A stretch of 64,000 nucleotides of DNA from Lachnospiraceae bacterium. GTDB taxonomy: Bacteria; Bacillota; Clostridia; Lachnospirales; Lachnospiraceae. This document shows, piece by piece, positions 13,116 through 55,394 of this stretch. The stretch spans positions 62,001 through 126,000 of the forward strand of contig JAFVXW010000046.1 of NCBI GenBank assembly GCA_017500935.1. Direction: 5' to 3'. Position numbers and translations under genes: made by a program. Under the pieces are notes generated by a model. The model made no database searches. It saw only the letters and a program-made list of their open reading frames with translations, and had not been told where the DNA came from. Every line of letters begins with the position of its first letter. Positions within the stretch are counted from its first letter, which is position 1.

Positions 13116-13126
13116 TCCTTATTTCC

Positions 13127-14787: not shown

Positions 14788-14799
14788 AACCAGTCTCCT

Positions 14800-15309: not shown

Positions 15310-15339
15310 TTTGTACTCCTTCTGCCGCCATTTTGCGGC

Positions 15340-17598
15340 TTACCATGTATTTACCGGATCAAAATCAAACTGACACATGCCCTTTGCATCTTTTTGCAGT
15401 GTGCGCTGTTTTTCGATATGATCCTTTATCTTAACCAGTTTCTGATAATCTTTATGCTTGATATAAACACCGTAACGATAGATATCGTTGATTTTGCCGA
15501 CTGCTGCCGGTGCAGGCCCGATCAGTACGGCATCTGCCCAGCTGTTTTTGTCAATGACTGTTTTGGCCCATTCTGCAGCCTGCGCAGCGGCCAGCTGTGC
15601 CTGTGCTTCTATGGGCGCACTCAAAAGCACTGCCAGCAAATGGGATGCCGGCGGATAGGAAAGAAGCTGTCTGTACAGCAGTTCTTCCTCAAAAAAGCCT
15701 TCGTAATCGGCTTTTTTTGCATACTGCACACTGTAATGCTCCGGCTGATAGGTCTGCAGCACCACTTCGCCGGGCTTTGTACCCCTTCCGGCTCTTCCTG
15801 CCGCCTGGGTCAGCAGCTGAAAGGTCCTCTCCCCTGCCCGGTAATCGTTGACAGAAAGGGAAAGATCGGCTGCCAGCACGCCAACCAGCGTCACATCAGG
15901 AAAATCATGTCCTTTTACGATCATCTGTGTTCCCACCAGAATGTCCGCTTCCTTATTGGCAAACGCCGACAGGATTTTTTCATAACTTTCTTTCGTGCGG
16001 GTGGTATCTGCATCCATGCGAAGCACCTTTGCCTGCGGATACAGTCTTTTAAGCTGTTCTTCTATCGCTTCCGTTCCGGCCTTAAAGCCCAGAATATAGC
16101 GTGAGCCGCAGGACGGACACAGCTTTACTGCAGGAATGGTATAGCCGCAGTAATGGCAGACAAGCGTGCCGTTTTTGTGTTCGGAAAGCGACACATCGCA
16201 GTGCGGACACTTGCACACATAACCGCAGGCTCTGCAGGAGACAAATCCCGCATATCCGCGGCGGTTTAAAAAAAGCATGGTCTGCTCGCCGTCTTTGAGC
16301 CTCTGCTCCATTTTTTCCTGCAGCCTGCGTGAAAAAATGCTTCTGTTTCCCTCTTTTAACTCCCTGCGCAGATCCTCCACATAAACTTTTGGAAGCTGTC
16401 CGCCGGTCAGACGTTCCTTTAAGGTAAACAGCAAAAACTCGCCCTGTCTGGCTCTTGCATAACTTTCCAGGGAAGGCGTTGCCGATCCCATCACCACCTG
16501 GGCGCCGTGAAGCTCTGCCAGCTTCAATGCTGTTTCTCTGGCATGGTATCTGGGCATCGTTTCACTTTTGTAACTGTTTTCATGCTCTTCGTCGATCAGG
16601 ATCATGCCAAGCCTTGGAAATGGTGTAAACAGTGCCGATCTGGGGCCGATGATCACATCGATCTCACCGCGTCTTGCCCGTTCACACTGATCCTGCTTTT
16701 CACCGGGGCTTAAGGTGGAATTGATCACTGAAACCCGGTCTCCAAATCTGCCGTAAAAACGCATCAGCGTCTGATAGGTAAGGGCAATCTCCGGAATCAG
16801 CACGATTGCCTGTTTTCCTCTTTTTAGAATACCCTCGATCAGGGCAAGATAAACCTCTGTTTTGCCGCTTCCCGTGATTCCGTGGATCAATGCCGGTGTT
16901 GTCACGCCGCTGTCTTCATTCTGCAGAATCCTTGTGACGATCTCCTGCTGTTTTTTACTCAAAAGCTTTGGAGGTGCCGTGTAATCTCCCAGTTTTACAG
17001 GGTTTCGCAGCACGGTTTTGGAATCCTGTGCAATGATGCCGTTTTCCTGCAGTCCCTTTAAGGTCGCTGCCGGAATGGCAAGCTTTTGCGTCACCAGCTC
17101 TCTTGGTAAAACCGGTGATTGGATCAGCTCTGTCAAAAGTCTTGCTTTGGCTTTCTGGTGCTTTCGTTCGTATTCACTTAAAAGTACCTGTGCCTGCTCT
17201 TTATCGACTAACAGACGTATTTCTTTTTTTTCCTTTGCCGCAGCCTTTGTGCGGGCAGGAAGCACTGTTTTTAGAGCCTGGATCATAGTGGAGCCATACT
17301 GCTGCTTCATCCAGGCAGCCAGTGCGATCATTTTTTCCCGAGGATCCTGCACGCCATCCTGCGTGCCCCCGGTCACAGTCAGACTGTGAATGTATTTCAT
17401 TTTTTCCGGCGGATAGTCCGACTCATCAGTCAGCTCTGTCACATAACCGGTGCGCAGGGTATTTCCTGTTCCAAAGGGGATCTGCACCCGCATTCCGGGC
17501 TGCAGCACATCCTGCAAAGCGTCCGGCACACGGTAACCAAAGGGCCGGTCCACTTTTTCATGGGAAATATCCACGATCACATTTGCGTATTTACTCAA
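15340..17598 (-). CDS. priA: Primosomal replication-restart helicase PriA
   Basis: 752 aa superfamily-2 helicase that recognises stalled forks and reloads the replisome. In order: an N-terminal DNA-binding domain (about 1-190), helicase lobe 1 with Walker A GITGSGKTEVY and the Walker B variant LIDEEHENSY, a zinc region with eight cysteines (from CRACGYVCKCPHC to CPSCGS, about residues 455-500), and lobe 2 (GTQMIVKGHDFPDVTLVG, AAGRAGRG). The start is a TTG at 17598 inside the end of murE (8 bp overlap). Normal length for the family. Confidence 0.97.
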   Translation of the reverse strand: MSKYANVIVDISHEKVDRPFGYRVPDALQDVLQPGMRVQIPFGTGNTLRTGYVTELTDESDYPPEKMKYIHSLTVTGGTQDGVQDPREKMIALAAWMKQQYGSTMIQALKTVLPARTKAAAKEKKEIRLLVDKEQAQVLLSEYERKHQKAKARLLTELIQSPVLPRELVTQKLAIPAATLKGLQENGIIAQDSKTVLRNPVKLGDYTAPPKLLSKKQQEIVTRILQNEDSGVTTPALIHGITGSGKTEVYLALIEGILKRGKQAIVLIPEIALTYQTLMRFYGRFGDRVSVINSTLSPGEKQDQCERARRGEIDVIIGPRSALFTPFPRLGMILIDEEHENSYKSETMPRYHARETALKLAELHGAQVVMGSATPSLESYARARQGEFLLFTLKERLTGGQLPKVYVEDLRRELKEGNRSIFSRRLQEKMEQRLKDGEQTMLFLNRRGYAGFVSCRACGYVCKCPHCDVSLSEHKNGTLVCHYCGYTIPAVKLCPSCGSRYILGFKAGTEAIEEQLKRLYPQAKVLRMDADTTRTKESYEKILSAFANKEADILVGTQMIVKGHDFPDVTLVGVLAADLSLSVNDYRAGERTFQLLTQAAGRAGRGTKPGEVVLQTYQPEHYSVQYAKKADYEGFFEEELLYRQLLSYPPASHLLAVLLSAPIEAQAQLAAAQAAEWAKTVIDKNSWADAVLIGPAPAAVGKINDIYRYGVYIKHKDYQKLVKIKDHIEKQRTLQKDAKGMCQFDFDPVNTW

Positions 17599-19075
17599 AA
17601 GAAACGCCTCTCTCCTGCAGAATGTCCGCGATCAGCTCGCGTTCATCCATGTGGTATTTGACACCTTTGATCTCCTGATAATCCTCGTGGCCTTTTCCGG
17701 CAAGCACAATGATGTCACCGGGCTGTCCGTTGTCAATGGCATAGGCAATGGCTTCTTTTCTGTCTTCGATCCGGATGTAGTGTCCGTCGGTTTTGCTGAT
17801 ACCGGTCACAATATCATCCATGATCGCTGCCGGTTCTTCAAAACGGGGATTGTCTGAGGTAATAATGGTAAAATCAGCCATTCTGCCGGAAACCTCTCCC
17901 ATCTCAAAGCGTCTGTCTCTGGAACGGTTGCCGCCGCAGCCAAACAGGCACACCAGACGGCCGTGCGGATATTCCTTTAAGGTAGACAGCAAAGATTCCA
18001 GTGCCATTGCATTGTGAGCATAATCGATCATCAAAGTAAAGTCATTGGAAACCTTCACCATTTCGATACGCCCCTTTACCCTGGCAGCCAGCAGCGCTTT
18101 GTTGATATCTTCTGTGCCGGCACCGAAATGTCTGCAGATGGCGATGGCTGTCATCGCGTTGTATACGGAAAATCTGCCGGGCAGTGCCACATGGGCTTTA
18201 AAATCAAGCAGTCCGCTGACATCAAATTTCATACCGAGCTGTCCTTTTTCATTGGTAAATACAGGATTTTGGGCACACAGATCATTGCCGTCTTTCAATC
18301 CGTAGGTTTCCAGTGTACAGCTGTGTCCGTCCGTCACCTGCTGCCAGTGTGCGTCATCCCCGTTTACAATACCCACTTTGCACTGTTTGAACAAAAGTCC
18401 CTTGCAGGCCATGTATTCTTCAAAACTGCCGTGCTCATTAGGGCCGATATGGTCGGGTTCCAGATTGGTAAAAATGCCAAAATCGAACACAAATCCCTGG
18501 GTTCTGTGCTGCATCAGCGCCTGGGAGGAAACCTCCATCACCACGGTATCCAGTCCAGCATCCACCATTTTGGCAAAGGTTTCCTGCAGAATATAAGATT
18601 CAGGTGTGGTGTTGACTGCCGGAATCACAGTGTCTGCGATGATTGTCTCGATCGTTCCCACAAGTCCCACTTTTTTGCCGACATTTTCCAGAATGGATTT
18701 TACCAGATAAGCGGTGGTTGTCTTTCCTTTGGTGCCGGTAATGCCGATGGTGGTCAGCTTCTGTGCCGGATGGCCAAACCACGCGGCAGAAATATGCGCC
18801 ATCGCATAACGGGTGTTTTCCACAAGGATCACCGTCACATCGGCCTCCTCAGGCAGTTCCACATCTTTGGAAACCACCAGAACCTTTGCACCTTTTTGGA
18901 CCACATCAGCAGCGTACTTGTGTCCGTCAAACACAGCACCGGTGATGCAGATAAACAATCCGCCTTCCATGCTTTCCTTGCGGGAATCGTATTCCACAGA
19001 AGCCACCTGGCAATCCAGGCTGCCTCTGATACAGGTATAGTCTAATTTTTCCAGTAACGTTTGTAATGCTTTCAA
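17591..19075 (-). CDS. murE: UDP-MurNAc-L-Ala-D-Glu:meso-diaminopimelate ligase
   Basis: Adds the third stem-peptide residue during cytoplasmic peptidoglycan synthesis; 494 aa. Mur-ligase architecture: N-terminal UDP-binding domain, ATP-binding domain with GITGTKGKTTTAY, and a C-terminal domain with TSDNPR, the motif that selects meso-DAP over lysine. A DAP-type wall is therefore expected. The start codon is TTG at 19075, 7 nt after GGAGG. It heads the long operon behind a good promoter (19122-19150). The window's dcw cluster is separate, so murE has been placed at the head of the priA group. Confidence 0.95.
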   Translation of the reverse strand: MKALQTLLEKLDYTCIRGSLDCQVASVEYDSRKESMEGGLFICITGAVFDGHKYAADVVQKGAKVLVVSKDVELPEEADVTVILVENTRYAMAHISAAWFGHPAQKLTTIGITGTKGKTTTAYLVKSILENVGKKVGLVGTIETIIADTVIPAVNTTPESYILQETFAKMVDAGLDTVVMEVSSQALMQHRTQGFVFDFGIFTNLEPDHIGPNEHGSFEEYMACKGLLFKQCKVGIVNGDDAHWQQVTDGHSCTLETYGLKDGNDLCAQNPVFTNEKGQLGMKFDVSGLLDFKAHVALPGRFSVYNAMTAIAICRHFGAGTEDINKALLAARVKGRIEMVKVSNDFTLMIDYAHNAMALESLLSTLKEYPHGRLVCLFGCGGNRSRDRRFEMGEVSGRMADFTIITSDNPRFEEPAAIMDDIVTGISKTDGHYIRIEDRKEAIAYAIDNGQPGDIIVLAGKGHEDYQEIKGVKYHMDERELIADILQERGVSFE

Positions 19076-42708: not shown

Positions 42709-43935
42709 TTATTCAGCGTCGTCAGCTGCTGCTACGCCGGGAAGTTCCTTACCTTCAAGGAATTCAAGGGAAGCGCCGCCGCCGGTGGAGATGTGGCTCA
42801 TCTTGTCAGCAAAACCAAGCTGGTTAACTGCTGCAGCAGAGTCACCGCCGCCGATGATGGTGATAGCATCGGTCTCAGCCAGTGCCTTAGCAACTGCGAT
42901 GGTACCAACTGCCAGGGTAGGATTCTCAAATACGCCCATAGGTCCGTTCCAAACAACAGTCTTAGCGGACTTAGCAGCTTCTGCAAACAGTTCGTTGGTC
43001 TTAGGACCATTGTCCAGACCCATTACGCCTGCAGGGATCTTGTCAGCATCAACATATTCAACTTCGATGGGAGCATCGATAGGGTTGGGGAACGCTGCTG
43101 CTACAGCTGCGTCTACAGGAAGCAGAAGCTTCTTGCCAAGGCTTTCAGCTTTTGCGATCATTTCTTTGCAGTAATCAAGCTTGGTGTCGTCTACCAGAGA
43201 GTTACCAACTTCATAGCCCTGAGCCTTTAAGAAGGTGAATGCCATACCGCCGCCGATGATCAGGGTATCGCACTTTTCAAGCAGGTTGGAGATAACGTTT
43301 AACTTATCAGCTACCTTAGCGCCGCCAAGGATTGCTACGAAAGGTCTAACGGGATTTTCAACTGCATTGCCAAGGAAGTTGATTTCCTTCTGCATCAGGT
43401 AACCAACTGCGTTCTCGCCGCCCTTTGCGGAGATGAACTTGGTAACGCCTTCAACAGATGCATGTGCTCTGTGAGAAGAACCGAATGCGTCACATACATA
43501 TACATCAGCCAGGTCAGCCAGTTCTTTGGAGAACTCTTCGCCGTTCTTGGTTTCTTCTTTGCCGCGGAAACGGGTGTTCTGAAGCAGAACAACATCGCCT
43601 TCGTTCATTGCTGCAACTGCTGCGGTAGCTTCTTCGCCGGTTACATTGTAATCAGAAACGAACTTAACTTCTTTACCAAGCTTTTCAGCCAGTCTTACTG
43701 CTACGGGAGCAAGGGACTCGCCTTCGTTGGGGCCGTTTTTAACTTTGCCAAGGTGAGAGCAAAGGATAACCTTGCCGCCATCAGCGATCAGCTTCTGGAT
43801 GGTGGGAAGTGCTGCTACGATACGGGTTTCGTCAGTGATAACGCCATTTTTTAACGGAACGTTGAAGTCACATCTTACAAGAACTCTCTTGCCGTTTACG
43901 TTGATATTATCAACGGATTTCTTATTTAAGCCCAT
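42709..43935 (-). CDS. pgk: Phosphoglycerate kinase
   Basis: 408 aa, the usual length. ATG at 43935 preceded by AAGGAGG; 29 upstream in-frame codons are non-conserved and excluded. Motifs: [16 protein letters not shown] (N-terminal substrate domain), LCSHLGK, the substrate-binding [12 protein letters not shown], and the nucleotide-binding [13 protein letters not shown] and GGGDSAAAV. Second gene of the group, with a terminator-like hairpin between gap and pgk. Confidence 0.98.
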
Positions 43936-44025
43936 GGTCTTGGACCTCCTTATATAAATTAAATAAAAAAATGTGCGTATAAACGTGTTTTTAATACGAC
44001 AGGGAACGAAGTTTTCTATCATATT

Positions 44026-44058
44026 AAAAACGGGTCCGGCCCTGAGGACCGGACCCGT
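44026..44058 (-). terminator. Terminator-like hairpin between gap and pgk
   Basis: ACGGGTCCGG (44030-44039) / CCGGACCCGT (44049-44058), 9 nt loop, followed by TTTTTAATAT on the minus strand. It may be leaky so as to set gap expression above pgk-tpiA, or pgk may have its own weak promoter in the 90 bp that follow. Confidence 0.8.
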
Positions 44059-44124
44059 AATATGAGCCTATGTCGTCTCATGCTGCCATGGCTAATGCCA
44101 CAGCCTGTCCATTACCAGACAAAA

Positions 44125-45144
44125 TTAAGCGTTCAGCAGTTTGCCGAAGTGCTTGATGGTACGAACCATCTGGCTGGTGTAGGAGTTTTCGTTGTCGTAC
44201 CAGGAAACAACCTGTACTTCTGCCAGATCTTCGCTGATAGGCAGAACCATGGTCTGGGTAGCATCGAACAGAGAACCGAATTCCATACCGATGATATCGC
44301 TGGAAACGATTTCGTCTTCGGTGTAACCGAAGGATTCGTTGGAAGCTGCCTTCATAGCTGCGTTGATAGCTGCCTTGGTAGGAGCGCCCTTAACAACAGC
44401 GGTAAGGATAGTGGTGGAACCGGTAGGGGTAGGAACACGCTGTGCGGAACCGATCAGCTTGCCGTTCAGTTCAGGGATAACAAGACCGATAGCTTTTGCA
44501 GCGCCGGTGCTGTTGGGAACGATATTGATAGCAGCTGCACGGGATCTTCTCAGATCGCCTTTTCTCTGAGGGCCGTCCAGAGTCATCTGGTCGCCGGTGT
44601 AAGCGTGGATGGTGCACATGATACCGGACTGGATAGCGAAAGCATCGTTAAGAGCCTTAGCCATGGGAGCCAGACAGTTGGTGGTGCAGGAAGCTGCGGA
44701 GATGATGGTATCTTCGTTGGTAAGAGCTTCGTGGTTTACGTTGTAAACGATGGTAGGCAGATCGTTGCCAGCGGGAGCAGAGATGATAACGTGCTTAGCG
44801 CCTGCATCGATGTGAGCCTGTGCCTTAGCCTTGGAGGTGTAGAAACCGGTACATTCCAGAACTACGTCTACATCCAGTTCGCCCCAGGGAAGTTCTGCAG
44901 CGTTAGCCTTAGCATAGATCTTGATTTCTTTTCCATCAACAGTGATAGAATCTTCACCAGCGGTAACCTTGTCAGCCAGTTTGTATCTACCCTGAGTGGA
45001 GTCATATTTCAGTAAGTGAGCCAGCATAGAGGGGGAGGTTAAGTCGTTGATTGCAACGATTTCAAAACCTTCTGCACCAAACATCTGTCTGAATGCAAGA
45101 CGACCAATACGGCCAAAACCATTAATTGCTACTTTTACTGCCAT
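44125..45144 (-). CDS. gap: Glyceraldehyde-3-phosphate dehydrogenase, type I
   Basis: 339 aa NAD-dependent enzyme. Rossmann motif [14 protein letters not shown] at the N-terminus, the catalytic cysteine in [12 protein letters not shown] (about residue 156), and the C-terminal [13 protein letters not shown]. First gene of the lower-glycolysis group and behind the best-matching promoter of the area. AGGAGG SD before ATG at 45144. Confidence 0.98.
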
Positions 45145-45235
45145 TTTAGTTTCCTCCTAAAAATGATTTTATCTTTCTTGTCAGGGAGGCACTAAAAAAG
45201 GGCATACTCCATGACAAAATTTTATCAACATAGTT

Positions 45236-45264
45236 ATTCTACATAATTATTCCTAAAATATCAA
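45236..45264 (-). promoter_or_regulatory. Predicted gap promoter
   Basis: Minus-strand -35 TTGATA (45259-45264), 17 bp spacer, -10 TAGAAT (45236-45241), giving a leader of about 85 nt. Confidence 0.7.
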
Positions 45265-45282
45265 GACATAAATTCAAAATTG

Positions 45283-45312
45283 TTGAAAATGCGAAGAATC
45301 TTTTGCTATACT
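45283..45312 (+). promoter_or_regulatory. Predicted promoter of the PHP phosphatase gene
   Basis: Plus-strand -35 TTGAAA (45283-45288), 18 bp spacer, -10 TATACT (45307-45312); a TATAAT follows directly at 45312-45317. Divergent from the gap promoter. Confidence 0.55.
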
Positions 45313-45317
45313 ATAAT

Positions 45318-45344
45318 CGGTCTGTGCGCAATGAACACAGACCG
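45318..45344 (+). promoter_or_regulatory. Perfect leader hairpin at the PHP phosphatase transcript start
   Basis: CGGTCTGTG (45318-45326) / CACAGACCG (45336-45344), 9 nt loop, located right after the -10 box and 38 bp before the ATG. No T run follows, so it is not a terminator. It could be an operator dyad or a 5' stability hairpin. Confidence 0.5.
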
Positions 45345-45382
45345 TCCAAACATAACGATGCTTTCTGAAAGGAGAACACAGA

Positions 45383-46201
45383 ATGCCTATCACATCCGAC
45401 TTTCATCTGCACTCTTCTTTTTCCGGGGATTCCAATACCCCTATGGAAGAAATGATAAAAAGTGCTGTTTCAAAAGGGTTTCGCTCTATCTGTTTTACGG
45501 AACATATGGATATGGACTATCCGGTAACCGAAGAATCCCCCGAAGGAATCTTTACTGTCAACACGGATTCCTATCTGTATGAACTTGCAAAATTAAAAGA
45601 GGTCTACGAAAATCAGATCAAAGTGCTTTTTGGCATTGAGCTTGGTGTCCAGCCCCATCTTATGCGCGAGCTTGCACGTTACGCCAAATCCTACGAATTT
45701 GACTTCATCATAGCATCCACGCATACCGTAAAAAGGCTGGATCCTTATTACCCTTCTTATTTTGAAAACAGAACCGATGAAGAAGCATACAGACAATACT
45801 TTGAAGAAGAACTGCTCTGCATGAGATCCTTTTCCAATTTCGATGTCTACGGTCACATTGATTATGTCATCCGCTACGGAAAGACCATCGATACCGAATA
45901 TTCCTATGACAAATACGCCGATCTTTTTGAAAAAATGATCGACCGCCTGCTGGATATGGAAAAAGGTATTGAGATCAACACCGGCGGCCTCCGCAAAGGT
46001 CTGCGCGAAGCCAATCCCTGCAGTGACTTTCTGCGCCGCTACCGTCAAAAAGGCGGCGAGATCATCACTGTCGGTTCCGATGCACACAATCCGGCCGATC
46101 TGGGCGCCGATTTTGACCGGGCAGCTGCCATCTTAACAGACTGCGGTTTTAAATACTACACCACCTTTGACAAACGTGTCCCCGCTTTCCACAAAATCTG
46201 A
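45383..46201 (+). CDS. PHP-domain phosphoesterase, histidinol-phosphatase (HisJ/HisK) family
   Basis: 272 aa. PHP metal-binding motifs in order: DFHLHSSFSGD, CFTEHMD, ASTHTV, YGHIDYVIRYG and GSDAHNP, which together form the trinuclear metal site. The length and motif set match the HisJ-type histidinol-phosphatases, but no histidine biosynthesis gene is nearby, so a different phosphate ester is possible. ATG at 45383 follows AAAGGAGAAC. It ends 1 bp from the stop of a convergent gene. Confidence 0.88.
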   Translation: MPITSDFHLHSSFSGDSNTPMEEMIKSAVSKGFRSICFTEHMDMDYPVTEESPEGIFTVNTDSYLYELAKLKEVYENQIKVLFGIELGVQPHLMRELARYAKSYEFDFIIASTHTVKRLDPYYPSYFENRTDEEAYRQYFEEELLCMRSFSNFDVYGHIDYVIRYGKTIDTEYSYDKYADLFEKMIDRLLDMEKGIEINTGGLRKGLREANPCSDFLRRYRQKGGEIITVGSDAHNPADLGADFDRAAAILTDCGFKYYTTFDKRVPAFHKI

Positions 46202-46202
46202 T

Positions 46203-47036
46203 CTATCTTGCGGCCGCCTGCCGGTACTCATCCTGCAGGCGGCTGATATTTTCCTGCATAAACCGGTCATATTCATCCGCTCTGCCATCTTCCTTCTTTG
46301 CTGCCGCTTCCGAAAATCTGTTGTATACTTCCGACTGCATCCATTCTGTGCTGCACTGTTCCAGCTGCCGTTCAAGCCCCATGGACGCCTGATACAGATC
46401 AGGTTTCTGCGACAGAAAATCCACATATTCCTGTGCCGGCAAAAGCATTCTCATGGCAGCCAGATACTGTCTGGCACTTTCCTGATTCTGACTGATCCGG
46501 TAAGCCTGTCCAAAAGACTGTGCCGCCTTTTCAAACCAGAACATTCCTGCCTGCGCAACCCCTGTATTATGCCATACCGCTGCCAGCAGAAAACTGTCTG
46601 CCCCCATCGGTTTTTTAAGCAGTTCGTCATATTCTTCCAGGGCTCTGACAAAACTGCCGTTTTCCAGAAAATAATCGCCTCTGCTTTTGCGGCGTCTGTG
46701 TTCGTCCGTATCCGCATTGGCACGAAGCACTTTGAGCAGATTCTCCACTTCCTGCTTTTCATAATAACAGGTGTAGCCAAACAGCTCCTGCACAAAATTT
46801 TCCATTGTATTTTCTTTTTTCTGTGTCAGTTCCAGTCTGGAGGCCAGCTGTGTCAATCCGCACTGCTGTCCGATCCATTCTGTCAGACCTTCTGAAAACA
46901 GGGAAGGCTCCAGAGCCCATATATTTTCCTTCAGAAAATAGCACAGTTCTTCTATATTCCAGATATGCACCCTTGCACGTTCAAAATAATAGGGTACTTC
47001 CGCATTTTGTCCAAGACACAGATAAACTCTTCCCAT
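46203..47036 (-). CDS. TPR-like protein of a three-gene operon, function unknown
   Basis: 277 aa from ATG at 47036 (AGAAAGGAA SD); the in-frame extension into the upstream gene is excluded. The N-terminal 90 residues are a globular region beginning GRVYLCLGQNAEVPYYF with several aromatics. After a charged linker, TPR-like helices follow (RGDYFLENGSFVRALEEYDEL, WHNTGVAQAGMFWFEKAAQSF, AYRISQNQESARQYLAAMRML). No signal peptide or membrane segment. It follows the Hsp70-like gene by 16 bp. A role as an adaptor for that protein is inference only. Confidence 0.75.
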   Translation of the reverse strand: MGRVYLCLGQNAEVPYYFERARVHIWNIEELCYFLKENIWALEPSLFSEGLTEWIGQQCGLTQLASRLELTQKKENTMENFVQELFGYTCYYEKQEVENLLKVLRANADTDEHRRRKSRGDYFLENGSFVRALEEYDELLKKPMGADSFLLAAVWHNTGVAQAGMFWFEKAAQSFGQAYRISQNQESARQYLAAMRMLLPAQEYVDFLSQKPDLYQASMGLERQLEQCSTEWMQSEVYNRFSEAAAKKEDGRADEYDRFMQENISRLQDEYRQAAAR

Positions 47037-47052
47037 AATGTTCCTTTCTGAT

Positions 47053-48369
47053 TTACAGCACAAACTCTTCTTCCCACAGTCTGTGGGTGGCAGGATAAAA
47101 CTCTCCAAATCCCAGATCCTCCATGGAAAGCTTTACTGTTTCCACGCTGGTCATCTCAATTTCCAGACGGATTCTGGTGGTACGCGCCGGCCTTTTGGGA
47201 AGTCCGGTCAGTGTCACCGACACCTCTTTGATCTTCCTGCCGTCAACAGGTGTGATGCGCAGTGAAAAGCTATCCTCATCTTCCAGCAAAAAATCACACT
47301 TCTTTTTGGCATCATACCAGTTGGTACCGGCATTCAAAAGTGCCAGATAGGCATCGCTGCCCCTTCTGACCACAAAAATGCCCACATTGGCCTTGATCAT
47401 ATCCTGTCCCAAAAACACATAGCCATCGGCCGCAGATCCCGGGACAAGACGCTCTTTTGCCGCGTAACAGGCTCCTTTGCTGTACAGGTTATTTCCCAGA
47501 AATACGCGTCTTTTGCTGCACATAAGCGCCAGCGCCTTCTGATACCACGCCCCATCAAAGCCTGTTCCGATCAGATAAATGGTGGAAACGCTACGCGCAG
47601 CCAGAACCGGTGCAACAGCCTCACAGAATTTCTGATCCAGAAGCATACCGCTTCTTTTTTCTTCCAAAGGCTCCAGGCCGCTCTGTATTTTCTGAATCTC
47701 TTCAAAATGCTGTTCATCGATGATAACCGCCGCCGGACGCGTTTTTTTATTGATTCCGAAACAGTATGTACGCAGTCCGTTTTCATCCAGTTCACACAGC
47801 AGTACATCCTGTGTCCAAAGCTGTGGCGGCTGATTGATATTATAATAGTAAAAGCACTCCGCTCTTCCTGTCACATAACAATTCTGTACCGGCAGTTCCA
47901 GCAAAGCTGCAGCTCTCATCAGCGCATCCACCACCGGTCTGGATACCGTTTCAACAGAAAACACAAATCCGGCAATCTGCTGTATCGGTAGAATCGGTGT
48001 CAGAAATGACAGACTCCGTTTTATAAACAAAGATAAAAGCACCACAGGATCAAAGGATTCTTCTCCTATCAAAACCGCTTCTTCTTTACAGGCGCGCTCC
48101 AAAAGATCTGTCACCAGCACTGCCTGTCCGTCCTGTCCAGCTGTCTGCGCATCTCTGCCAAACAGCCAGATATCCCTGGAAGAAACCCTTCCCAAAACTG
48201 CAGGGATTAGATAATCTTCCTCACCGGCCACCTGACTGACAGTCTCTGGCTTTGTACTTCCAGGCAGCCAATAACTGATCTGGGCATAGCTATTCCCAAG
48301 ATCATATCCGACTACAGCCTTAGCCTGCTCTGTTTTACCTGCTCCCTCTTTCTTTTTATCAAAAAACAT
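47053..48369 (-). CDS. Hsp70/actin-fold protein of unknown function (probably DUF5716 family)
   Basis: 438 aa from ATG at 48369 (AGGAAGG SD). Residues 19-32 (VVGYDLGNSYAQIS) match the phosphate-1 loop of the Hsp70/actin ATPase fold. A degenerate phosphate-2 region appears as LLCELDENGLRTYCFGI (around 190-206), and IYLIGTGFDGAWYQKAL resembles the adenosine motif, followed by CYAAKERL. The C-terminal about 100 residues (from KANVGIFVVRRG) are beta-rich and replace the classic substrate-binding domain. No membrane segment. The catalytic Asp/Gly pattern of phosphate-2 is weakened, so it may bind rather than hydrolyse ATP. The DUF5716 label is from memory. Confidence 0.75.
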   Translation of the reverse strand: MFFDKKKEGAGKTEQAKAVVGYDLGNSYAQISYWLPGSTKPETVSQVAGEEDYLIPAVLGRVSSRDIWLFGRDAQTAGQDGQAVLVTDLLERACKEEAVLIGEESFDPVVLLSLFIKRSLSFLTPILPIQQIAGFVFSVETVSRPVVDALMRAAALLELPVQNCYVTGRAECFYYYNINQPPQLWTQDVLLCELDENGLRTYCFGINKKTRPAAVIIDEQHFEEIQKIQSGLEPLEEKRSGMLLDQKFCEAVAPVLAARSVSTIYLIGTGFDGAWYQKALALMCSKRRVFLGNNLYSKGACYAAKERLVPGSAADGYVFLGQDMIKANVGIFVVRRGSDAYLALLNAGTNWYDAKKKCDFLLEDEDSFSLRITPVDGRKIKEVSVTLTGLPKRPARTTRIRLEIEMTSVETVKLSMEDLGFGEFYPATHRLWEEEFVL

Positions 48370-48385
48370 GCAACTTCCTTCCTGC

Positions 48386-51300
48386 TTATGATCCGTTAAG
48401 CGGTCCAAACAATCTGGACACATAAAACTGCATTTTCATATATTCCTGCTGCAAAGGCAGACTGTCCGCCTCTTTTTTCTCAAGCTGTTTTTCACAGACG
48501 GCACTGAGCATGGCGTAACGGCTTTGCTTTTCGTCCTGCTGCGAAACGGCAGGCTTTAAAAAACCGCTTTCCAGAATCTGATCGTCCTGCTGCCTAAGTG
48601 TGATATAATACTGCAGCGTTTCTCCGGGAAACAAAAGAAACTCTGCAGCATGGATACCGTCACAGATCCAGCGCATTTTAACGCTTCGGTATGCTTCCTG
48701 GGCAGCTTCGTCTCTGATCGTACGCCAGTGGATCCAGACTTCCTTCTGCATCACCCTGCGGCAGACCACAAAACTTTTGTCCGACAGATACACTGCCTGC
48801 GGCAGAATATCTCCATAATGCTTCAACACCGGCAGATATTTTCCGTTCCGGTACATTTTTTCAGCAATCTGCAGCAGATTCCTGTCGGTATCTGTATTTC
48901 GGGATTCCCGGTTGCGGGCATAATATTCCAGATATGCGATTTCACACATTTCAGAAATCCGCTCCTTCTGCCGCATCTGCTGTCCGATCATCTGGATAAC
49001 CGAAATATGGATCGGCTCATCCATCATCACATAACGGCAGGCACAGCGATGCAAAAAAGCACCTGTTACCCTGCTGCTGCCGCCTTCACGCACATACTGC
49101 CGCAAAAGATCGGTCCGTTCAGAAACATCCGCCCCTGTAAAGAGCATCTGCAGGATCATGCGCTCGCATAACCCAAAGGTATCCAGTTCAAAACCTTCTG
49201 CCGCATGATAAATGGCATCCAGCTCCGTAATGCTTCCCTGATAACATTCCGCCAGCTGCTGCAAAATACCGGCATCATATTTGCCGCAAAGCACCGCCCT
49301 GGCACAAAGAGAGGTCAGATAACTGTCATCGGGTCTGGTCTGTTCTCCCAGCATTCTGCCGCACAAACGCATTAACAATCCTGCATCCATCCGTCGGATA
49401 TCTGTACCTGCAAGCCATGCATAGCCTTTTTCATAGAAACCACGCTGTATCAGCATCTCTGCAATTTTTCCCTGTTCTGAGGGCTCTGCCTGCTCTTGTG
49501 TGATCTTTTCCAGAAAATCATCCAGCTGCGGCGTGTTATCTTTTCCGGTAAAATAGGAAAACAGTCCGCTGTGTATCTTCCGGCAATAATGCTTCTCCAG
49601 CTGCGTACAGCAAGTAAGTGCCAGATAGTTCGAAACATTGTCTTCTCTTATTTCTGTATCTTCGCCGTCTAAAACCGCCATATGATACCCGAACCATTCT
49701 CCCGCAAAAGGGGCAGTCCTTTCAAATATTTCCCTGTCAGAAAACAGCCGGTCCACTTTGGTGTCCTCTGTATCCGCAATGAAATAACCCTCCTGTGTCT
49801 GCCACAAAAGAAGATCCTCTTTGCTGTACAAGTCCACTTCCGTACATTCCCCATTTACGGCATAGCGGTCGATTCTGTCAAGCTTTGCCCGGACAACCGC
49901 CAGCTTTGTACAATCTGTTTTTTTGTATACTTCTGCCCTGGTAAGCAGCTGTGCCAATGCCTGCGCATTGTCAGCTGTCAGAAGCGCTCCCTGTACCATT
50001 CCGGTATACAAATACGCCAAAGGTCTGCTGATCTTTCCTTTTTGCAGCTGTGCTGTCACAAACCGTTCGATCAGGGGCCTGTACGCCGCATACAGATCAG
50101 CATCTTCCCTGCAGTGCTTTTGCACATACGCATACAGATATGCGGCCTGCTCCGGTTCCAGATCACTCTGATATGCAAAATACATCAGGATAATACGTGG
50201 AATTTCCACCTGTCTGCCCAGATCCAGACTCATCATGTAATATTCGTACAGCCGTGTGATCCTAAGGCTCTCCTCTACTCCTTTTGCATACCATTCAAAA
50301 TATTTTCTGCCGCTTTTTGCCCCCTTGATCAGCAGGGTACAGATTGCCTGCAGAATCTCTGTATCCGGCTTCATCTCATAACAGCGGCATAAAATCTGAT
50401 ATAAATGCCGGTCATAATACTTTTCCCGTCCTGCCATATACAGAATCTGTCCGATCAGATTCTGTGTCAGCATCCGTTTTTTTGCGCCATAGTACAGAAT
50501 ACGGATCACATGGTCTTCAAGCTTTGGCAAAAGGGCCGGATTGGCATTCAAAAGCTGCAGCGTTTCCAGATATAAAACAGGGCTGACACATCCCTGCTTA
50601 AAACAGCTCTCCAAAAACATCCATCTGGAAGAGGCATTGCGGTTTATATCCCCGGATAAATATAAGAGCAGCCAGGCAATTCTCCACTCTCCGGGATTTT
50701 GGGCAAACATCTCCTTCACCCGGCGTTCCACCGCTGCAGTATAAGTTTCTTTTTGTACATAAAGGGTATCCAGATACAGATAGTAACACAAAACTGCCGG
50801 TGTCATCTCATCCATAAAAGGCTCTGCATGCTCAAGGATCCATCCTGCCTCTTCAAATTTTTCCTGTGTAATAAACAGATGAGCCTTAAACAGCTTTGCT
50901 TCCACACTTTTATCCGTCAGATAATACAGCTTGTCAGCGCATTCCGCAGCCTGCTGCTGCCAGCTTTCCATATCAATGCGTCTGGTACGCAGCTGCTCAT
51001 ACAAAGAGATCAGCTGCAGATTGTACTGTTTCGCCTCTCTTCTGTTGTATTCTTTGCTGCGGTTCTGCAGATTTTGACTCTCTGCAATTACCTCCACACA
51101 AAAACTGCCTTCCGGCCATTCAAACTCCACTTTTCCAAAATTGCGTCCGGCATGCAGCATCTGTTCATCGATCATCACAGAAAGGGTACACTGATTGCCC
51201 AAAAAAGAATCTTCTGTCAGCTTCTTTGTATCTGCCGACAGAAACGCGCCCTCTGTCCGCACTGTCAGTCCCACAGCACCCCAGCCGCTTTTTGTGATCA

Positions 51301-51940
51301 CCAACTCTTCTCTGACACTCCTGCGCAGATCCTTCACCTGAATCTGTGACTGCGCACAACTATAGACAACCGGCTGTTTTTTGCCGGCTGCGGTCAGAAA
51401 CTGATCCACATGATAGGCATTGCCGCGTTCTGCACTGAATCCTCTGTATAAAATGCGGATTTTTTCCTCTTCCTGTTCCAGAATCTTATCAAAATCCGGG
51501 TGATAAAATAACTGTACCGCTTCCTGCCAGTATGCACGGGCCAGATTCACAAAATGCTGCAGACTGCTTATCTCACCGATCTTAGACTGTAAAACCCGAT
51601 CTGCCGCCGTGATCCGGTAAGGCAGCCGGTATTCACCGCAGTCAGAAATGATCTGAAAATACCCTTCCCGGCTTTCGCCCGGCTCCATTTTGCAGGCATC
51701 AAAAGTATAGATCATTGTTTCCCGGTTTCCGCAAAACCACGGTACCGGTATTTTGATCCGCACATCATCGGCCAGCACATAGCCTTCTGCTTCCATGTTC
51801 TCCGGACAAATGATCTCAAAACTGCCCTCTGCTGCCTGCCCTGTCAAAGGAGACAGTTCTATCTCTTTACAGGAAAAAGAAAGCTCTGTTTTATTCATCT
51901 TCCAGCGCTCTTCCAAAACCCGTTCCCGTATTTTTTTCAT
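48386..51940 (-). CDS. Large helical-repeat protein of unknown function (probably DUF5717 family)
   Basis: 1184 aa from ATG at 51940, 8 nt after a strong AGGAGG; a second in-frame ATG lies 14 codons on. An N-terminal beta-rich part (about 20-290) contains LSPLTGQAAEGSFEI and VDQFLTAAGKKQPVVYSC. It is followed by about 700 residues of TPR/solenoid-like helices (AKLFKAHLFITQEKFEEAGWIL, RISEMCEIAYLEYYARN) and a short C-terminal beta region. No signal peptide or membrane span. First gene of the operon with the Hsp70-like protein and the 277 aa TPR protein, separated by only 16 bp each. Function unknown; family label from memory. Confidence 0.75.
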   Translation of the reverse strand: MKKIRERVLEERWKMNKTELSFSCKEIELSPLTGQAAEGSFEIICPENMEAEGYVLADDVRIKIPVPWFCGNRETMIYTFDACKMEPGESREGYFQIISDCGEYRLPYRITAADRVLQSKIGEISSLQHFVNLARAYWQEAVQLFYHPDFDKILEQEEEKIRILYRGFSAERGNAYHVDQFLTAAGKKQPVVYSCAQSQIQVKDLRRSVREELVITKSGWGAVGLTVRTEGAFLSADTKKLTEDSFLGNQCTLSVMIDEQMLHAGRNFGKVEFEWPEGSFCVEVIAESQNLQNRSKEYNRREAKQYNLQLISLYEQLRTRRIDMESWQQQAAECADKLYYLTDKSVEAKLFKAHLFITQEKFEEAGWILEHAEPFMDEMTPAVLCYYLYLDTLYVQKETYTAAVERRVKEMFAQNPGEWRIAWLLLYLSGDINRNASSRWMFLESCFKQGCVSPVLYLETLQLLNANPALLPKLEDHVIRILYYGAKKRMLTQNLIGQILYMAGREKYYDRHLYQILCRCYEMKPDTEILQAICTLLIKGAKSGRKYFEWYAKGVEESLRITRLYEYYMMSLDLGRQVEIPRIILMYFAYQSDLEPEQAAYLYAYVQKHCREDADLYAAYRPLIERFVTAQLQKGKISRPLAYLYTGMVQGALLTADNAQALAQLLTRAEVYKKTDCTKLAVVRAKLDRIDRYAVNGECTEVDLYSKEDLLLWQTQEGYFIADTEDTKVDRLFSDREIFERTAPFAGEWFGYHMAVLDGEDTEIREDNVSNYLALTCCTQLEKHYCRKIHSGLFSYFTGKDNTPQLDDFLEKITQEQAEPSEQGKIAEMLIQRGFYEKGYAWLAGTDIRRMDAGLLMRLCGRMLGEQTRPDDSYLTSLCARAVLCGKYDAGILQQLAECYQGSITELDAIYHAAEGFELDTFGLCERMILQMLFTGADVSERTDLLRQYVREGGSSRVTGAFLHRCACRYVMMDEPIHISVIQMIGQQMRQKERISEMCEIAYLEYYARNRESRNTDTDRNLLQIAEKMYRNGKYLPVLKHYGDILPQAVYLSDKSFVVCRRVMQKEVWIHWRTIRDEAAQEAYRSVKMRWICDGIHAAEFLLFPGETLQYYITLRQQDDQILESGFLKPAVSQQDEKQSRYAMLSAVCEKQLEKKEADSLPLQQEYMKMQFYVSRLFGPLNGS

Positions 51941-51988
51941 GACAACCGCCTCCTGATCCAAGTTCGCACATAAGTTCTCTTTTCATCC

Positions 51989-52017
51989 ATTCTACTCTAA
52001 AAATCAGATCGGCACAA
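51989..52017 (-). promoter_or_regulatory. Predicted promoter of the three-gene Hsp70-like operon
   Basis: Minus-strand -35 TTGTGC (52012-52017), 17 bp spacer, -10 TAGAAT (51989-51994), about 45 bp before the ATG. It shares the 105 bp gap with the divergent SpoIID-like gene, whose plus-strand -10-like TATGAT is at 52037-52042. Confidence 0.65.
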
Positions 52018-52066
52018 CTGCTTTTTTCCGGCATATTATGATAGAAAAATACACCGAGGTAAAACC

Positions 52067-53332
52067 ATGCCCACTGCCTTTCATGCTTCCCGGCAAGCTG
52101 ACAGCAGCACCGGCCGTCTGCAGATCAATGTTACTTCCCTGACCGGATTTTTCCCTGTCCAAAACGCATCGGTCACGATAGCCGACAGCCGGACACCGGA
52201 AAATATCATCGAGCAGGTACTCACTGATGAATCCGGCCAGACACAGCCAATCGAACTTCCGGCTCCCGCTTTTGCCTACTCTCAGACTCCGCAGCAGCCC
52301 AAACCTTATACCGACTACAATATTGAAATTCAGGCAGAAGGTTATGAACCGGTGCGGATCATCGGTTCAGAACTGCTTCCCGGAGAACTCAGCCTCCAGC
52401 CGGTTTCCATGCGTCCCCTGACCCAGACTTCTGCACTGGAAGAAGATATTGATATCCCTGCTCATACCCTGTATGGAGAATATCCGCCCAAAATACCAGA
52501 ATCCGAGATAAAAGTTGACGCCGAAACCGGCGAGATCGTACTGGGACGTGTGGTAATTCCGGAATATGTGGTGGTTCATGACGGTGTCCCCTCTGATTCC
52601 AGCGCACCCAATTATTATGTCCGCTACAAAGACTACATCAAAAATGTGGCTTCTTCGGAAATCTACGCAACCTGGCCTGAAAGCACGATCTATGCCAATA
52701 TTCTGGCGATCCAGTCGTTTACACTTAACCGTGTTTACACGGAGTGGTACAGAAATCAGGGTTATTCTTTTACCATCACCTCTTCCACTGCCTACGACCA
52801 GAAATTCATCTACGGCAGAAATATTTACTCCAACATCGACCGCCTGGTGGACTCCATTTTTGCCAATTACCTTTCCCGCCCCGGTATCCGCCAGCCCATT
52901 TTTACCAGCTACTGCGACGGCAACCGTGTACAGTGTCAGGGGCTCTCCCAATGGGGTTCCAAAACACTGGGCGATCAGGGATATTCTGCCATTGAGATCA
53001 TCCGCTATTATTACGGAAATGACATGTATATCAACACCGCTCCCGCCATCAGCGGCATCCCTGCTTCCTGGCCGGGTTACGATCTTTCCATCGGCGCAAG
53101 CGGTCCCAAGGTCCGCCAGATTCAGGAGCAGTTAAACCGGATTGCCAGAAACTTTCCCGCGATCCCCCAGGTAACCGCCGACGGTATTTACGGCAGCCAG
53201 ACCGCAGATGCTGTCCGTGTGTTCCAGCGTATTTTTGACCTTCCCCAGTCCGGGATCATCGATTATCCCACATGGTATGAAATTTCCAATATTTATGTCG
53301 GTGTCAGCAGGATTGCGGAGCCGGGAACGTAA
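52067..53332 (+). CDS. SpoIID/LytB-like protein with C-terminal peptidoglycan-binding domain
   Basis: 421 aa. The N-terminal region (about 15-115) looks like a carboxypeptidase-regulatory/Ig-like fold (LQINVTSLTGFFPVQNASVTI, YNIEIQAEGYEPVRI). The middle (about 180-325) resembles SpoIID/LytB: ILAIQSFTLNRVYTEWY, then CQGLSQWGSKTLGDQGYSAIEI and IRYYYG. The end (about 340-415) is a PG_binding_1 domain (GPKVRQIQEQLNRIARNFP, DGIYGSQTADAVRVFQR). No signal peptide or membrane segment is visible, which is odd for a wall-binding protein. It may act in the mother cell or spore, or reach the surface another way. GAGGT SD before ATG. Confidence 0.85.
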   Translation: MPTAFHASRQADSSTGRLQINVTSLTGFFPVQNASVTIADSRTPENIIEQVLTDESGQTQPIELPAPAFAYSQTPQQPKPYTDYNIEIQAEGYEPVRIIGSELLPGELSLQPVSMRPLTQTSALEEDIDIPAHTLYGEYPPKIPESEIKVDAETGEIVLGRVVIPEYVVVHDGVPSDSSAPNYYVRYKDYIKNVASSEIYATWPESTIYANILAIQSFTLNRVYTEWYRNQGYSFTITSSTAYDQKFIYGRNIYSNIDRLVDSIFANYLSRPGIRQPIFTSYCDGNRVQCQGLSQWGSKTLGDQGYSAIEIIRYYYGNDMYINTAPAISGIPASWPGYDLSIGASGPKVRQIQEQLNRIARNFPAIPQVTADGIYGSQTADAVRVFQRIFDLPQSGIIDYPTWYEISNIYVGVSRIAEPGT

Positions 53333-53363
53333 GGAATAAGAAAAGTCATAAGTATTACAGACT

Positions 53364-53412
53364 AAAAAATCCTGATTCAAATCTAATGACGGATTTGAAC
53401 CAGGATTTTTTT
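53364..53412. terminator. Bidirectional terminator between SpoIID-like gene and htpG
   Basis: Long inverted repeat: AAAAAATCCTG plus ATTCAAATC (53364-53383) pairing with GATTTGAA plus CCAGGATTTTTTT (53392-53412), small bulges, between two convergent genes. Confidence 0.9.
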
Positions 53413-53433
53413 CATTATATTTGGGTTTTAATT

Positions 53434-55368
53434 TTATTTCGCCAAAAGCATCATAATCTCATTGGAGCGTGCAACAAACTTCATCATTGCTTCCGCAGAA
53501 AGAGGGGTATTCTGAATCTTAGCCAGATCATAGAGCTGTTCGCAGATCATCGCGGTATTTTCGCCGTCCTGATTTTCTGTGATATAGGAAACCAGAGGAT
53601 GATTTGCGTTGAGCACCAGAGTTTCGCCTTCGCCGCCAAACATTCCCATATCCATGCCGCTTACCGCATACATCTTCATCATATCCTGCATACGTCTGCT
53701 TTCTTCGGATACAGTAAGGACAGAGGAAACTTTCTTGTTTTTGAGTTTTTCGATCTTGACTTTGATCTTGTCGTTTTTCAGTGCTTTTCGTACAAGAGCT
53801 TCGATTTTTTCGCTCTGTGCTGCCATTTCTTCCTGCGCCTTTTTACTGGTCTTCGCCTTGAAAACATCGGTCAGATCCGCATCGATGCGCGCAAAGTGAA
53901 TACCTTCGTTCTTTGCTTCCAGCTGGGAGATAAAGGGCTGATCGATACGCTCAGGCAGGATCACCGCATCCAGCTTGGCAGCCTTGAACATGCTGATATA
54001 CTGGCTCTGCTGCTGTTCATCTGTTACATAGTAGATGGTCTTTTCCTTCTTTTCATCAGCACCATCCTGTGCATCATCCACAACTTCTGCTTCCACTGCT
54101 TCACCGTTTTCATCCACCGCAGCCGCCTCGTCAGGATCGATCTTATTGACTTCCAGACATTCAGGCAAAGTCATATATTTGCCGTCCAGGTTCTTAAAAA
54201 GGATATAGTCTGTCATCTTCTGGCAGAACTTTTCATCCTTTAAGCAGCCGAATTTGATAAAGGGAGCAATGTCATCCCAGTATTTTTCGTATTCATCCTT
54301 CTGGGTCTTGCACAGGCCTGCCAGCTTATCTGCAACCTTCTTAGTGATATAGTCGGAAATTTTCTTCACGAAACCGTCATTCTGCAGCGCACTTCTGGAT
54401 ACGTTCAGCGGCAGATCAGGACAGTCGATCACGCCCTTTAACAGCAGTAAAAATTCCGGGATAACTTCCTTGATATTGTCTGCGATAAACACCTGATTGT
54501 TGTAAAGCTTGATCACACCTTCAATGGATTCATATTCCATGTTGATCTTGGGGAAGTACAGGATACCCTTTAAATTGAAAGGATAATCCATGTTCAGATG
54601 AATCCAGAAGAGAGGCTCCTTGTAATCCATAAATACCTTGCGGTAAAAGTCCACATACTCTTCCTTTGTGCATTCGCTGGGATTTTTTGTCCAAAGAGGT
54701 TTTGTATCATTGATCAGGGAAGGCGCTTCTTCTGTGTTGGCTCTGGACAGGTAAATCTCATAAGGCATAAATCCGCAGTATTTGCCCAGAACTTCCTTCG
54801 CTTTGTATTCATTGCAGAACTGCAGACAGTCTTCATTTAAAAACAGGGTGATCTTAGTTCCGACCTGATCCCAGTCACCTTCATCCATATCGTACTCAGT
54901 ACCGCCGTCACATTCCCAGTGTACCGGCTTTGCACCTTCCTGCCAGGAAAGGGTATCAATATGCACTTCATCCGCAACCATGAATGCAGAGTAAAAACCA
55001 AGGCCAAAATGTCCGATGATCTGATCATCATTGGTCTTATCTTTGTATTTCGCGATAAAATCGGTTGCGCCGGAAAATGCGATCTGGGTGATATATTCTT
55101 CCACTTCGGAAGCAGTCATACCGATACCGTTATCAATAAAGGTAAGGGTCTTATTGTCGGGATCCGCGATCACCTGAATGCAGGGCTTATAATCATCGGG
55201 AAGGGTATATTCTCCCATCATATCCAGCTTTTTTAATTTGGTGACAGCGTCACAGCCATTGCTTACCAGTTCTCTGTAAAAAATATCGTGATCGGAATAC
55301 AACCACTTTTTGATAATAGGAAAAATGTTGTCGCTGTTGATTGACAGGTTACCATGTTTTGCAGCCAT
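53434..55368 (-). CDS. htpG: Molecular chaperone HtpG (Hsp90)
   Basis: 644 aa from ATG at 55368 (AAAGGAT SD). GHKL ATP-binding domain at the N-terminus with RELVSNGCDA, FIDNGIGMT and GHFGLGFYSAFMV; the middle domain contains LPLNVSRSALQND, and the C-terminal dimerisation domain ends the protein. An acidic linker lies near residues 430-455 (EVVDDAQDGADEKKEK). It carries a perfect CIRCE and a strong promoter upstream, so it belongs to the HrcA regulon here, unlike in B. subtilis where htpG lacks CIRCE. Confidence 0.97.
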   Translation of the reverse strand: MAAKHGNLSINSDNIFPIIKKWLYSDHDIFYRELVSNGCDAVTKLKKLDMMGEYTLPDDYKPCIQVIADPDNKTLTFIDNGIGMTASEVEEYITQIAFSGATDFIAKYKDKTNDDQIIGHFGLGFYSAFMVADEVHIDTLSWQEGAKPVHWECDGGTEYDMDEGDWDQVGTKITLFLNEDCLQFCNEYKAKEVLGKYCGFMPYEIYLSRANTEEAPSLINDTKPLWTKNPSECTKEEYVDFYRKVFMDYKEPLFWIHLNMDYPFNLKGILYFPKINMEYESIEGVIKLYNNQVFIADNIKEVIPEFLLLLKGVIDCPDLPLNVSRSALQNDGFVKKISDYITKKVADKLAGLCKTQKDEYEKYWDDIAPFIKFGCLKDEKFCQKMTDYILFKNLDGKYMTLPECLEVNKIDPDEAAAVDENGEAVEAEVVDDAQDGADEKKEKTIYYVTDEQQQSQYISMFKAAKLDAVILPERIDQPFISQLEAKNEGIHFARIDADLTDVFKAKTSKKAQEEMAAQSEKIEALVRKALKNDKIKVKIEKLKNKKVSSVLTVSEESRRMQDMMKMYAVSGMDMGMFGGEGETLVLNANHPLVSYITENQDGENTAMICEQLYDLAKIQNTPLSAEAMMKFVARSNEIMMLLAK

Positions 55369-55394
55369 AAAAATCACAATCCTTTCTTATTTTA

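Follow-up and report, generated by a model that had tools for sequence, protein, structure and literature searches.

What use is an Hsp70 to a bacterium once its ATP-hydrolyzing residues are gone? The question is raised by a three-gene operon at positions 46203 to 51940 of a 64,000-nucleotide stretch of a Lachnospiraceae genome (assembly GCA_017500935.1, contig JAFVXW010000046.1, positions 62,001 to 126,000), referred to here as the window. The operon encodes members of the Pfam families DUF5717 and DUF5716 and a protein resembling tetratricopeptide repeat (TPR) proteins. We compared it with relatives across the order Lachnospirales, where homologues outside the family Lachnospiraceae typically belong to an operon of eight genes with four Hsp70 paralogues and a GrpE-domain protein. 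Our best reading of the sequences is that the window operon is what remains of this eight-gene machine after the loss of its ATP-driven parts.

The operon lies on the minus strand. By open reading frame (ORF) and Pfam match, its first gene (48386..51940) encodes the DUF5717 protein of 1184 amino acids (aa). The second (47053..48369) encodes the DUF5716 protein of 438 aa, a lidless and catalytically degenerate descendant of Hsp70, and the third (46203..47036) the TPR-like protein of 277 aa. The extent of the operon, the protein lengths and the two spacers of 16 bp each are as an earlier note on this DNA had described them. A purine-rich stretch resembling a ribosome-binding site precedes each start: AGGAGG (51949..51954, minus strand), AGGAAGG and AGAAAGGAA. 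The family names given in the note are borne out by scores far above the Pfam cut-offs. The DUF5716 protein matches DUF5716_C (PF18980) with 338.5 bits against a cut-off of 34.7 (E = 3.5e-101); the DUF5717 protein matches PF18984 at residues 1-867 (835.1 bits, E = 7.6e-251) and PF18983 at residues 872-1178 (233.7 bits, E = 3.5e-69), each with a cut-off of 25. None of the three window proteins reaches the cut-off of any NCBIfam model. Their hydropathy stays at or below 1.72 in every 19-residue stretch, so no membrane helix is suggested.

In the sister families, eight genes typically follow one another: DUF5717-N (~390 aa), DUF5717-C (~900 aa), Hsp70a (~559 aa), a protein ending in a GrpE domain (~550-645 aa), a DUF5716-type protein (gene 5; 457-545 aa), Hsp70b (~545 aa), Hsp70c (~692 aa) and a TPR protein (gene 8; ~387 aa). 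Among 20 stretches fetched from 19 genomes of the order outside the family, 13 have all eight roles in order, some with small ORFs between them; the remaining seven are cut at contig ends, split between contigs, lack a role or contain intervening genes. At one locus (L071), where the two DUF5717 parts form a single ORF, Pfam HSP70 matches Hsp70a, Hsp70b and Hsp70c with E-values of 5e-76, 7e-63 and 4.5e-96. Gene 4 of this locus ends in a GrpE domain (PF01025, E = 3e-13); gene 4 also matches 4ani (E = 9.8e-7). Hsp70c carries a von Willebrand factor A (VWA) domain (E = 1.9e-10); the fusion lies at L071:6494-8572, and its metal site, DTTGSM, was read by eye. NCBIfam agrees with Pfam on the Hsp70 and GrpE assignments. 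A second locus of the eight-gene type (L069) has split ORFs and a GrpE gene of 279 aa.

How widespread is this operon? Hsp70b was searched against 84,980 species, each represented by a single genome; of the 87 relatives returned, 80 were kept. They come from Defluviitalea phaphyphila and Petrocella sp. FN5, both genera belonging to the Lachnospirales by NCBI lineage, and from metagenome-assembled genomes labelled Defluviitaleaceae, Vallitaleaceae, Epulonipiscium, Eubacteriaceae and others. The full order is found in 31 of the 80 loci and violated in none, the remainder being partial and many at contig ends; this count leaves out genes on the other strand, and the sets of loci include duplicates of the same genomes. 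Full-length gene 4 was not found in 245 genomes of the class, which include two order members outside the family, both without a GrpE-fusion match. Among the matches listed, nearly all gene-4 matches in the class cover the GrpE domain alone; two reach other parts of the protein weakly (G069, 395-595, 5.5e-6; G202, 228-369, 1.5e-4). A DnaK-sized Hsp70 is also kept in the seven eight-gene genomes checked, and two members of the order with no DUF5716 match (G508 and G262) have only DnaK-sized Hsp70 and short MreB-like HSP70 matches.

The eight-gene operon supplies the sequences that bridge DUF5716 and Hsp70. Using hhalign, the Lachnospiraceae DUF5716 profile aligns with gene 5 over 421 columns (P = 100, E = 1.5e-57) and with Hsp70b (P = 99.7, E = 4.5e-26). 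At L071, gene 5 matches both DUF5716_C (1.5e-26) and HSP70 (1.4e-17), and Hsp70b itself matches DUF5716_C (E = 7.5e-10). The gene 5 profile in turn finds solved DnaK structures with E = 4.4e-23 over residues 22-502. Through these bridges, profile homology runs across the nucleotide-binding domain and the substrate-binding beta-domain (SBD-beta). On this homology DUF5716 is an Hsp70 descendant consisting of those two domains without the lid. In the window protein, alignment to Hsp70 places SBD-beta at residues ~317-432 (47074..47421, minus strand), after which the protein ends, leaving no SBD-alpha lid. SBD-beta is retained in both gene 5 and DUF5716; the lid is absent from these two and from Hsp70a and Hsp70b. 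The earlier note was right about the divergent Hsp70 and about the anatomy of the operon. Its statement that a classic substrate-binding domain is lacking holds for the lid but not for the beta-domain, and it missed the eight-gene operon, which adds three more Hsp70s and a protein with a GrpE domain.

Which of the catalytic motifs survive? On the minus strand of the window, the phosphate-1 loop GYDLGN reported by the note is present at residues 21-26 (48292..48309), and its Asp is found in 34 of 37 family members. The phosphate-2 site, LCELDENGLRTY (residues 191-202; 47764..47799), had been called weakened; it is indeed degenerate, but the motif is lost rather than merely weak. Alignment identifies LIGTGFD (residues 266-272; 47554..47574) as a remnant of the adenosine motif, in which G268 is invariant and G270 nearly so among 40 sequences. 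Motif counts, which include near-duplicates and leave out proteins outside a length window, give for the 37 family DUF5716 proteins: TTN 0, catalytic Lys (K70) 7, E171 0, GGGT 0 and adenosine GG 0. In gene 5 (n = 73) the adenosine GG is kept in 63, with TTN 0, Lys 1, E171 7 and GGGT 0. By the same counts, the other three Hsp70s are better preserved. Hsp70a has every motif in 56/56 except Lys (52/56), and Hsp70c has all of them intact (77/77). Hsp70b keeps the Asp residues, E171, GGGT and adenosine GG in 95/95 and TTN in 85/95, and the catalytic Lys in none of the 95. On these counts the catalytic motifs of DUF5716 are lost, and were already lost in the eight-gene form.

In a tree of 53 proteins, the 20 family DUF5716 proteins included form a single clade (100/99), whose sister is gene 5 of L069 (100/100); rooted with Hsp70b, the family proteins are nested within gene 5. 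The two operon types also share flanks, which we compared in 39 family and 100 other loci, duplicates counted. An aminotransferase-like gene lies upstream on the opposite strand in 14 family and 20 other loci, a valS-like gene flanks 10 and 9 (both named by eye), and g9, a coiled-coil gene described below, flanks 15 and 12. None of the three lies beside the window operon. Tree, synteny and profiles together show that DUF5716 descends from gene 5 of the eight-gene operon; the direction of that descent we infer. Searched with HSP70, the window's genome yields one DnaK and two short MreB-like matches only; Hsp70a, b and c are therefore not found there. HSP70 matches occur in 49 of 50 family genomes; several carry additional Hsp70s, whose frames are mostly 560-650 aa among the matches listed.

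Could this degenerate Hsp70 instead work like Hsp110, pairing with an active Hsp70 as exchange factor or substrate-handover partner? Divergent Hsp70s serve as exchange factors in eukaryotes. Here the partner would be Hsp70a, b or c in the sister families, where the DUF5716-type gene adjoins Hsp70s with intact motifs, and DnaK in Lachnospiraceae; a full Hsp70 of DnaK size is kept in the window's genome and in 9/9 genomes of the order checked. However, a protein with a GrpE domain is already encoded in the eight-gene operon, Hsp110 keeps ATP binding, and in the window's genome dnaK lies on contig C12 and the operon on C29. We consider such a co-chaperone role unlikely.

The scaffold-like remainder that we favor differs from gene 5 in one further respect. 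Between the phosphate-2 and adenosine motifs (47575..47763, minus strand, in the window), family DUF5716 proteins have 56-75 residues (37/37, proteins of 380-470 aa). Gene-5 proteins have 129-158 (69/69, 440-600 aa, four near-duplicates dropped) and DnaK has 140, so that ~70 residues fewer are present in the family. We take this stretch to be the place of DnaK's subdomain IIB, part of the GrpE-binding face. The earlier note had proposed an ATP-gated chaperone or scaffold. In such a chaperone, DUF5716 would still bind and hydrolyze ATP by altered chemistry and drive a client cycle with its two partners. The near-constant phosphate-1 Asp, the invariant adenosine-site glycine and the retained SBD-beta speak for this idea; yet with the catalytic motifs gone and ~70 residues missing at the place of IIB, it is quite unlikely to be right.

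If DUF5716 is no ATP-driven chaperone, what do its partners contribute? The DUF5717 protein appears to consist of two modules. Module 1 (residues ~1-300; 51041..51940, minus strand) corresponds to the separate ~390 aa gene of the sister families: in BLAST, residues 1-274 match L069 at 15738-16928 (E = 1.7e-16), and DUF5717_N is found on L070 at 17429-18595. Module 2 (residues ~301-1184; 48389..51040, minus strand) corresponds to the ~900 aa gene, residues 308-1113 matching L069 at 13051-15708 (E = 3.7e-54), with PF18984/PF18983 on L070 at 14740-17442. Module 2 probably comprises helical repeats and a C-terminal domain. The helical part, and with it the solenoid proposed earlier, draws on a weak profile match to GmaR (E = 0.0013). 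Five loci (L056, L057, L060, L061 and L068) form a subclade with a shorter DUF5717 of about 1095-1108 aa, apparently without part of the region around residues 750-850. The third window protein matches TPR_2 below the Pfam cut-off (19.3 bits against 27, E = 0.0011). It is probably a TPR-type partner, as the earlier note read it: the family profile aligns with gene 8 over 177 columns (hhalign, P = 99.9, E = 9.1e-33), and gene 8 itself matches TPR_2 with E = 5e-26. A conserved N-terminal domain (~1-112) is followed by the predicted TPR region (~113-190).

The three genes keep close company. The order DUF5717-DUF5716-TPR is found in 37 of the 39 family loci read. One of the other two, L173, begins where its contig does; the second, L190, fuses DUF5716 (1-421) to TPR (434-709) in one ORF of 709 aa. 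This natural fusion argues for contact between the two proteins. Measured to the first ATG, gaps are at most 100 bp in 34/38 DUF5717-DUF5716 pairs (median 21) and 38/38 DUF5716-TPR pairs (median 11), 15 of the latter overlapping; with any start codon allowed, the medians are 17 and -4.

Many relatives add a fourth gene, g9, which encodes a coiled-coil protein of ~390 aa whose middle part is hydrophobic (for example L049:11177-12373, and in 26 other loci). Five g9 proteins scanned against Pfam gave nothing above cut-off. The gene lies directly downstream of the TPR gene in 23/25 loci having both. It is present in 93/200 Lachnospiraceae genera at E<=0.001, in 90 of these below 1e-17, and lies less than 600 bp away from the TPR gene in 62/63 genomes compared, the remaining one having it on another contig. 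Might DUF5716, as a member of the actin/Hsp70 superfamily, resemble FtsA or PilM and form an assembly with DUF5717 at the membrane, with g9 as its tether? The position of g9 would suit such a cytoskeletal or envelope scaffold, but the profile similarity is to Hsp70, including an SBD-beta that actins lack, and the window's genome has no g9. We regard this, too, as a slim prospect.

The earlier note had proposed a genome survey of whether the three genes are conserved neighbours as a test of its reading. They are: beyond the constant order described above, DUF5716 is found in 195 of 200 Lachnospiraceae genera, DUF5717_N in 196 and the TPR protein in 195, one of the TPR matches being weak (E = 2.2e-4). 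Two DUF5716 matches occur in each of G418 and G426, and one in every other matching family genome. Two family genomes, G318 and G380 (93 and 98% complete), have no DUF5716 or DUF5717 match, through either true loss or an assembly gap. Among 291 genomes drawn from the class, DUF5716 occurs in 10, all Lachnospiraceae (10/10 of the family in the draw), and in 0/281 outside the family, three of these belonging to the same order. DUF5717_N occurs in 4/299 genomes of the phylum, all four from the family. A survey of the order found DUF5716 in 22/22 family members and 67/174 others, 82 of the 89 matches exceeding the Pfam cut-off; outside the family the matches lie mostly in proteins of ~500 aa, and in many cases a nearby ~550 aa protein matches as well.

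A role in anti-phage defence or as mobile cargo is scarcely credible: CoCoNuT restriction systems contain Hsp70-like and VWA parts (PMC11090510), PADLOC models match Hsp70b (PDC-M61B, 8.7e-11), Hsp70-VWA (PDC-M61B, 4.4e-7) and the TPR gene (PDC-M71B, 4.3e-6) of the eight-gene form, and the DUF5716 protein has five tblastn matches in a phage collection, but what these PADLOC models match are generic parts of Hsp70 and TPR sequence, the window proteins give a single PADLOC match (E = 0.007), the operon is near-universal in the family with shared chromosomal flanks, and the contigs of the two best phage matches carry the operon and genes of bacterial appearance. Those two, L192 (MT835486.1) and L193 (MT835719.1), are unannotated human faecal records named 'Bacteriophage sp.' that carry the three-gene operon, L192 with valS-like pieces among its neighbours; they are probably bacterial contigs filed as phage. 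A plasmid collection gave no match, either by DNA or with the DUF5717 protein.

We therefore return to the remainder of the eight-gene machine and ask how it might work. We propose a non-hydrolyzing Hsp70 scaffold, similar to yeast Ssz1, held by two partner proteins, and give this mechanism an even chance. The three proteins would form a stable cytosolic complex around a lidless Hsp70 descendant that lacks the ATP-hydrolysis residues but keeps SBD-beta and the glycines that define the fold. As constant order, close spacing and the one fusion suggest, DUF5716 would be held by DUF5717 and the TPR protein. The family appears to have lost the ATP-driven parts and, with them, the DUF5716 segment corresponding to the exchange-factor site of Hsp70, and so the complex most likely works without an ATPase cycle. 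SBD-beta may bind a client segment or partner strand weakly, reversibly and independently of nucleotide, as in Ssz1. Its presentation or positioning would fall to DUF5717 and the TPR protein, with g9 placing it beside the membrane in many relatives. Just short of even in our estimate is the wider reading: that the order has an unnamed, dedicated machine of four Hsp70s, a GrpE-domain exchange factor, a two-module DUF5717 scaffold and a TPR adaptor, of which the family keeps only a near-universal, nucleotide-independent, Ssz1-like core. Two of the Hsp70s would have intact ATPase motifs, one would lack the catalytic lysine only and one would be a pseudo-ATPase; one is fused to VWA. Some members of this machine would be tied to the membrane by the coiled-coil protein.

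Several observations weigh against this account. The polarity of descent rests on a long-branched tree rooted by a paralogue. Against a single DnaK, the family DUF5716 profile aligns over the first ~180 residues only (P = 94), and against the PDB it reaches the N-terminal part only (DnaK, E = 3e-4). Nucleotide could still be bound through the conserved Asp and the glycines of the adenosine site. Additional, unclassified Hsp70s occur in several family genomes. Three gene-5 proteins (L159, L160 and L168) have 112-127 residues in the IIB stretch, yet their loci keep the GrpE gene; these are very divergent proteins of 412-433 aa in otherwise eight-gene-like loci, possibly a second route of decay. 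As for the membrane tie, g9 is absent from 107/200 family genera as well as from the window's genome. Finally, one genome outside the family (G637, family f85) has a family-like DUF5716 match (3.9e-94, in a 434-aa frame), and its contig C40 (L197) carries a family-type DUF5717-DUF5716-TPR operon. This genome is 86% complete, 5% contaminated and in about 300 contigs; given that quality, the operon is either contamination or a transfer.

The 'one good promoter' of the earlier note is not borne out. The candidate just upstream of the operon (TTTACC-17-CATAAT, 52063-52035) scores 9/12, and the region 43000-54500 has 19 promoter-like sites against 15.3 (sd 3.8) in shuffles; the candidate is no better than chance. 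Adjoining the operon, a divergently transcribed gene (52067-53332) encodes a protein with a peptidoglycan-binding-like C-terminus, and beyond it lies a gene resembling HtpG (Hsp90) (53434-55377); both translations were read by eye.

If our reading is correct, it gives an operon at the core of a large bacterial family an origin and a testable mechanism, and DUF5716 and DUF5717 are no longer orphan families. The four-Hsp70 operon with its own exchange factor would be a gradation made by nature, running from active to dead Hsp70, one that shows what ATP hydrolysis, the lid and subdomain IIB each contribute.

How does this compare with known systems? The window proteins are direct members of DUF5716 and DUF5717, whose Pfam descriptions give no function. 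The open-access papers searched describe none either, as the earlier note expected, and a single one mentions the families, in a motif-search aside about human MAX. In the same literature we found no work combining Hsp70, GrpE, von Willebrand factor and Clostridia, nor the eight-gene operon or the derivation of DUF5716 from it. The two families were already known, without function. Several Hsp70s per genome are also seen in DnaK paralogue expansions (PMC11019930), but the eight-gene operon places four different paralogues in one operon with a GrpE-domain protein. In the main text of that source, words starting with Clostridi or Bacillota do not occur, and Firmicutes occurs three times. The StkA locus of Myxococcus xanthus likewise has an Hsp70-like gene in a specialized cluster, and StkA is not heat-shock induced; its neighbours, unlike those described here, are small SCP2-like and PhaE-like proteins (PMC4319316). 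DnaK and HscA are homologous to DUF5716 across the nucleotide-binding domain and SBD-beta, but DUF5716 is without the catalytic residues, the lid and the IIB stretch. As the earlier note stated, the set is not a DnaK/DnaJ/GrpE system. No J-domain matched in the three window proteins, the L071 operon proteins or the two L070 proteins scanned; partners encoded elsewhere were not sought. The closest parallel is Ssz1 of the yeast ribosome-associated complex, which has the Hsp70 nucleotide-binding domain and SBD-beta, no alpha lid and no ATP hydrolysis (PMC7083937), as predicted for DUF5716. Ssz1 is a stable subunit beside another chaperone, and DUF5716 may likewise sit in a stable complex. Ssz1, however, does bind ATP, and its partner at the ribosome is a J-domain protein, whereas DUF5716 lacks ~70 residues near IIB, has DUF5717 and the TPR protein as its partners, and has no J-domain protein in the operons scanned.

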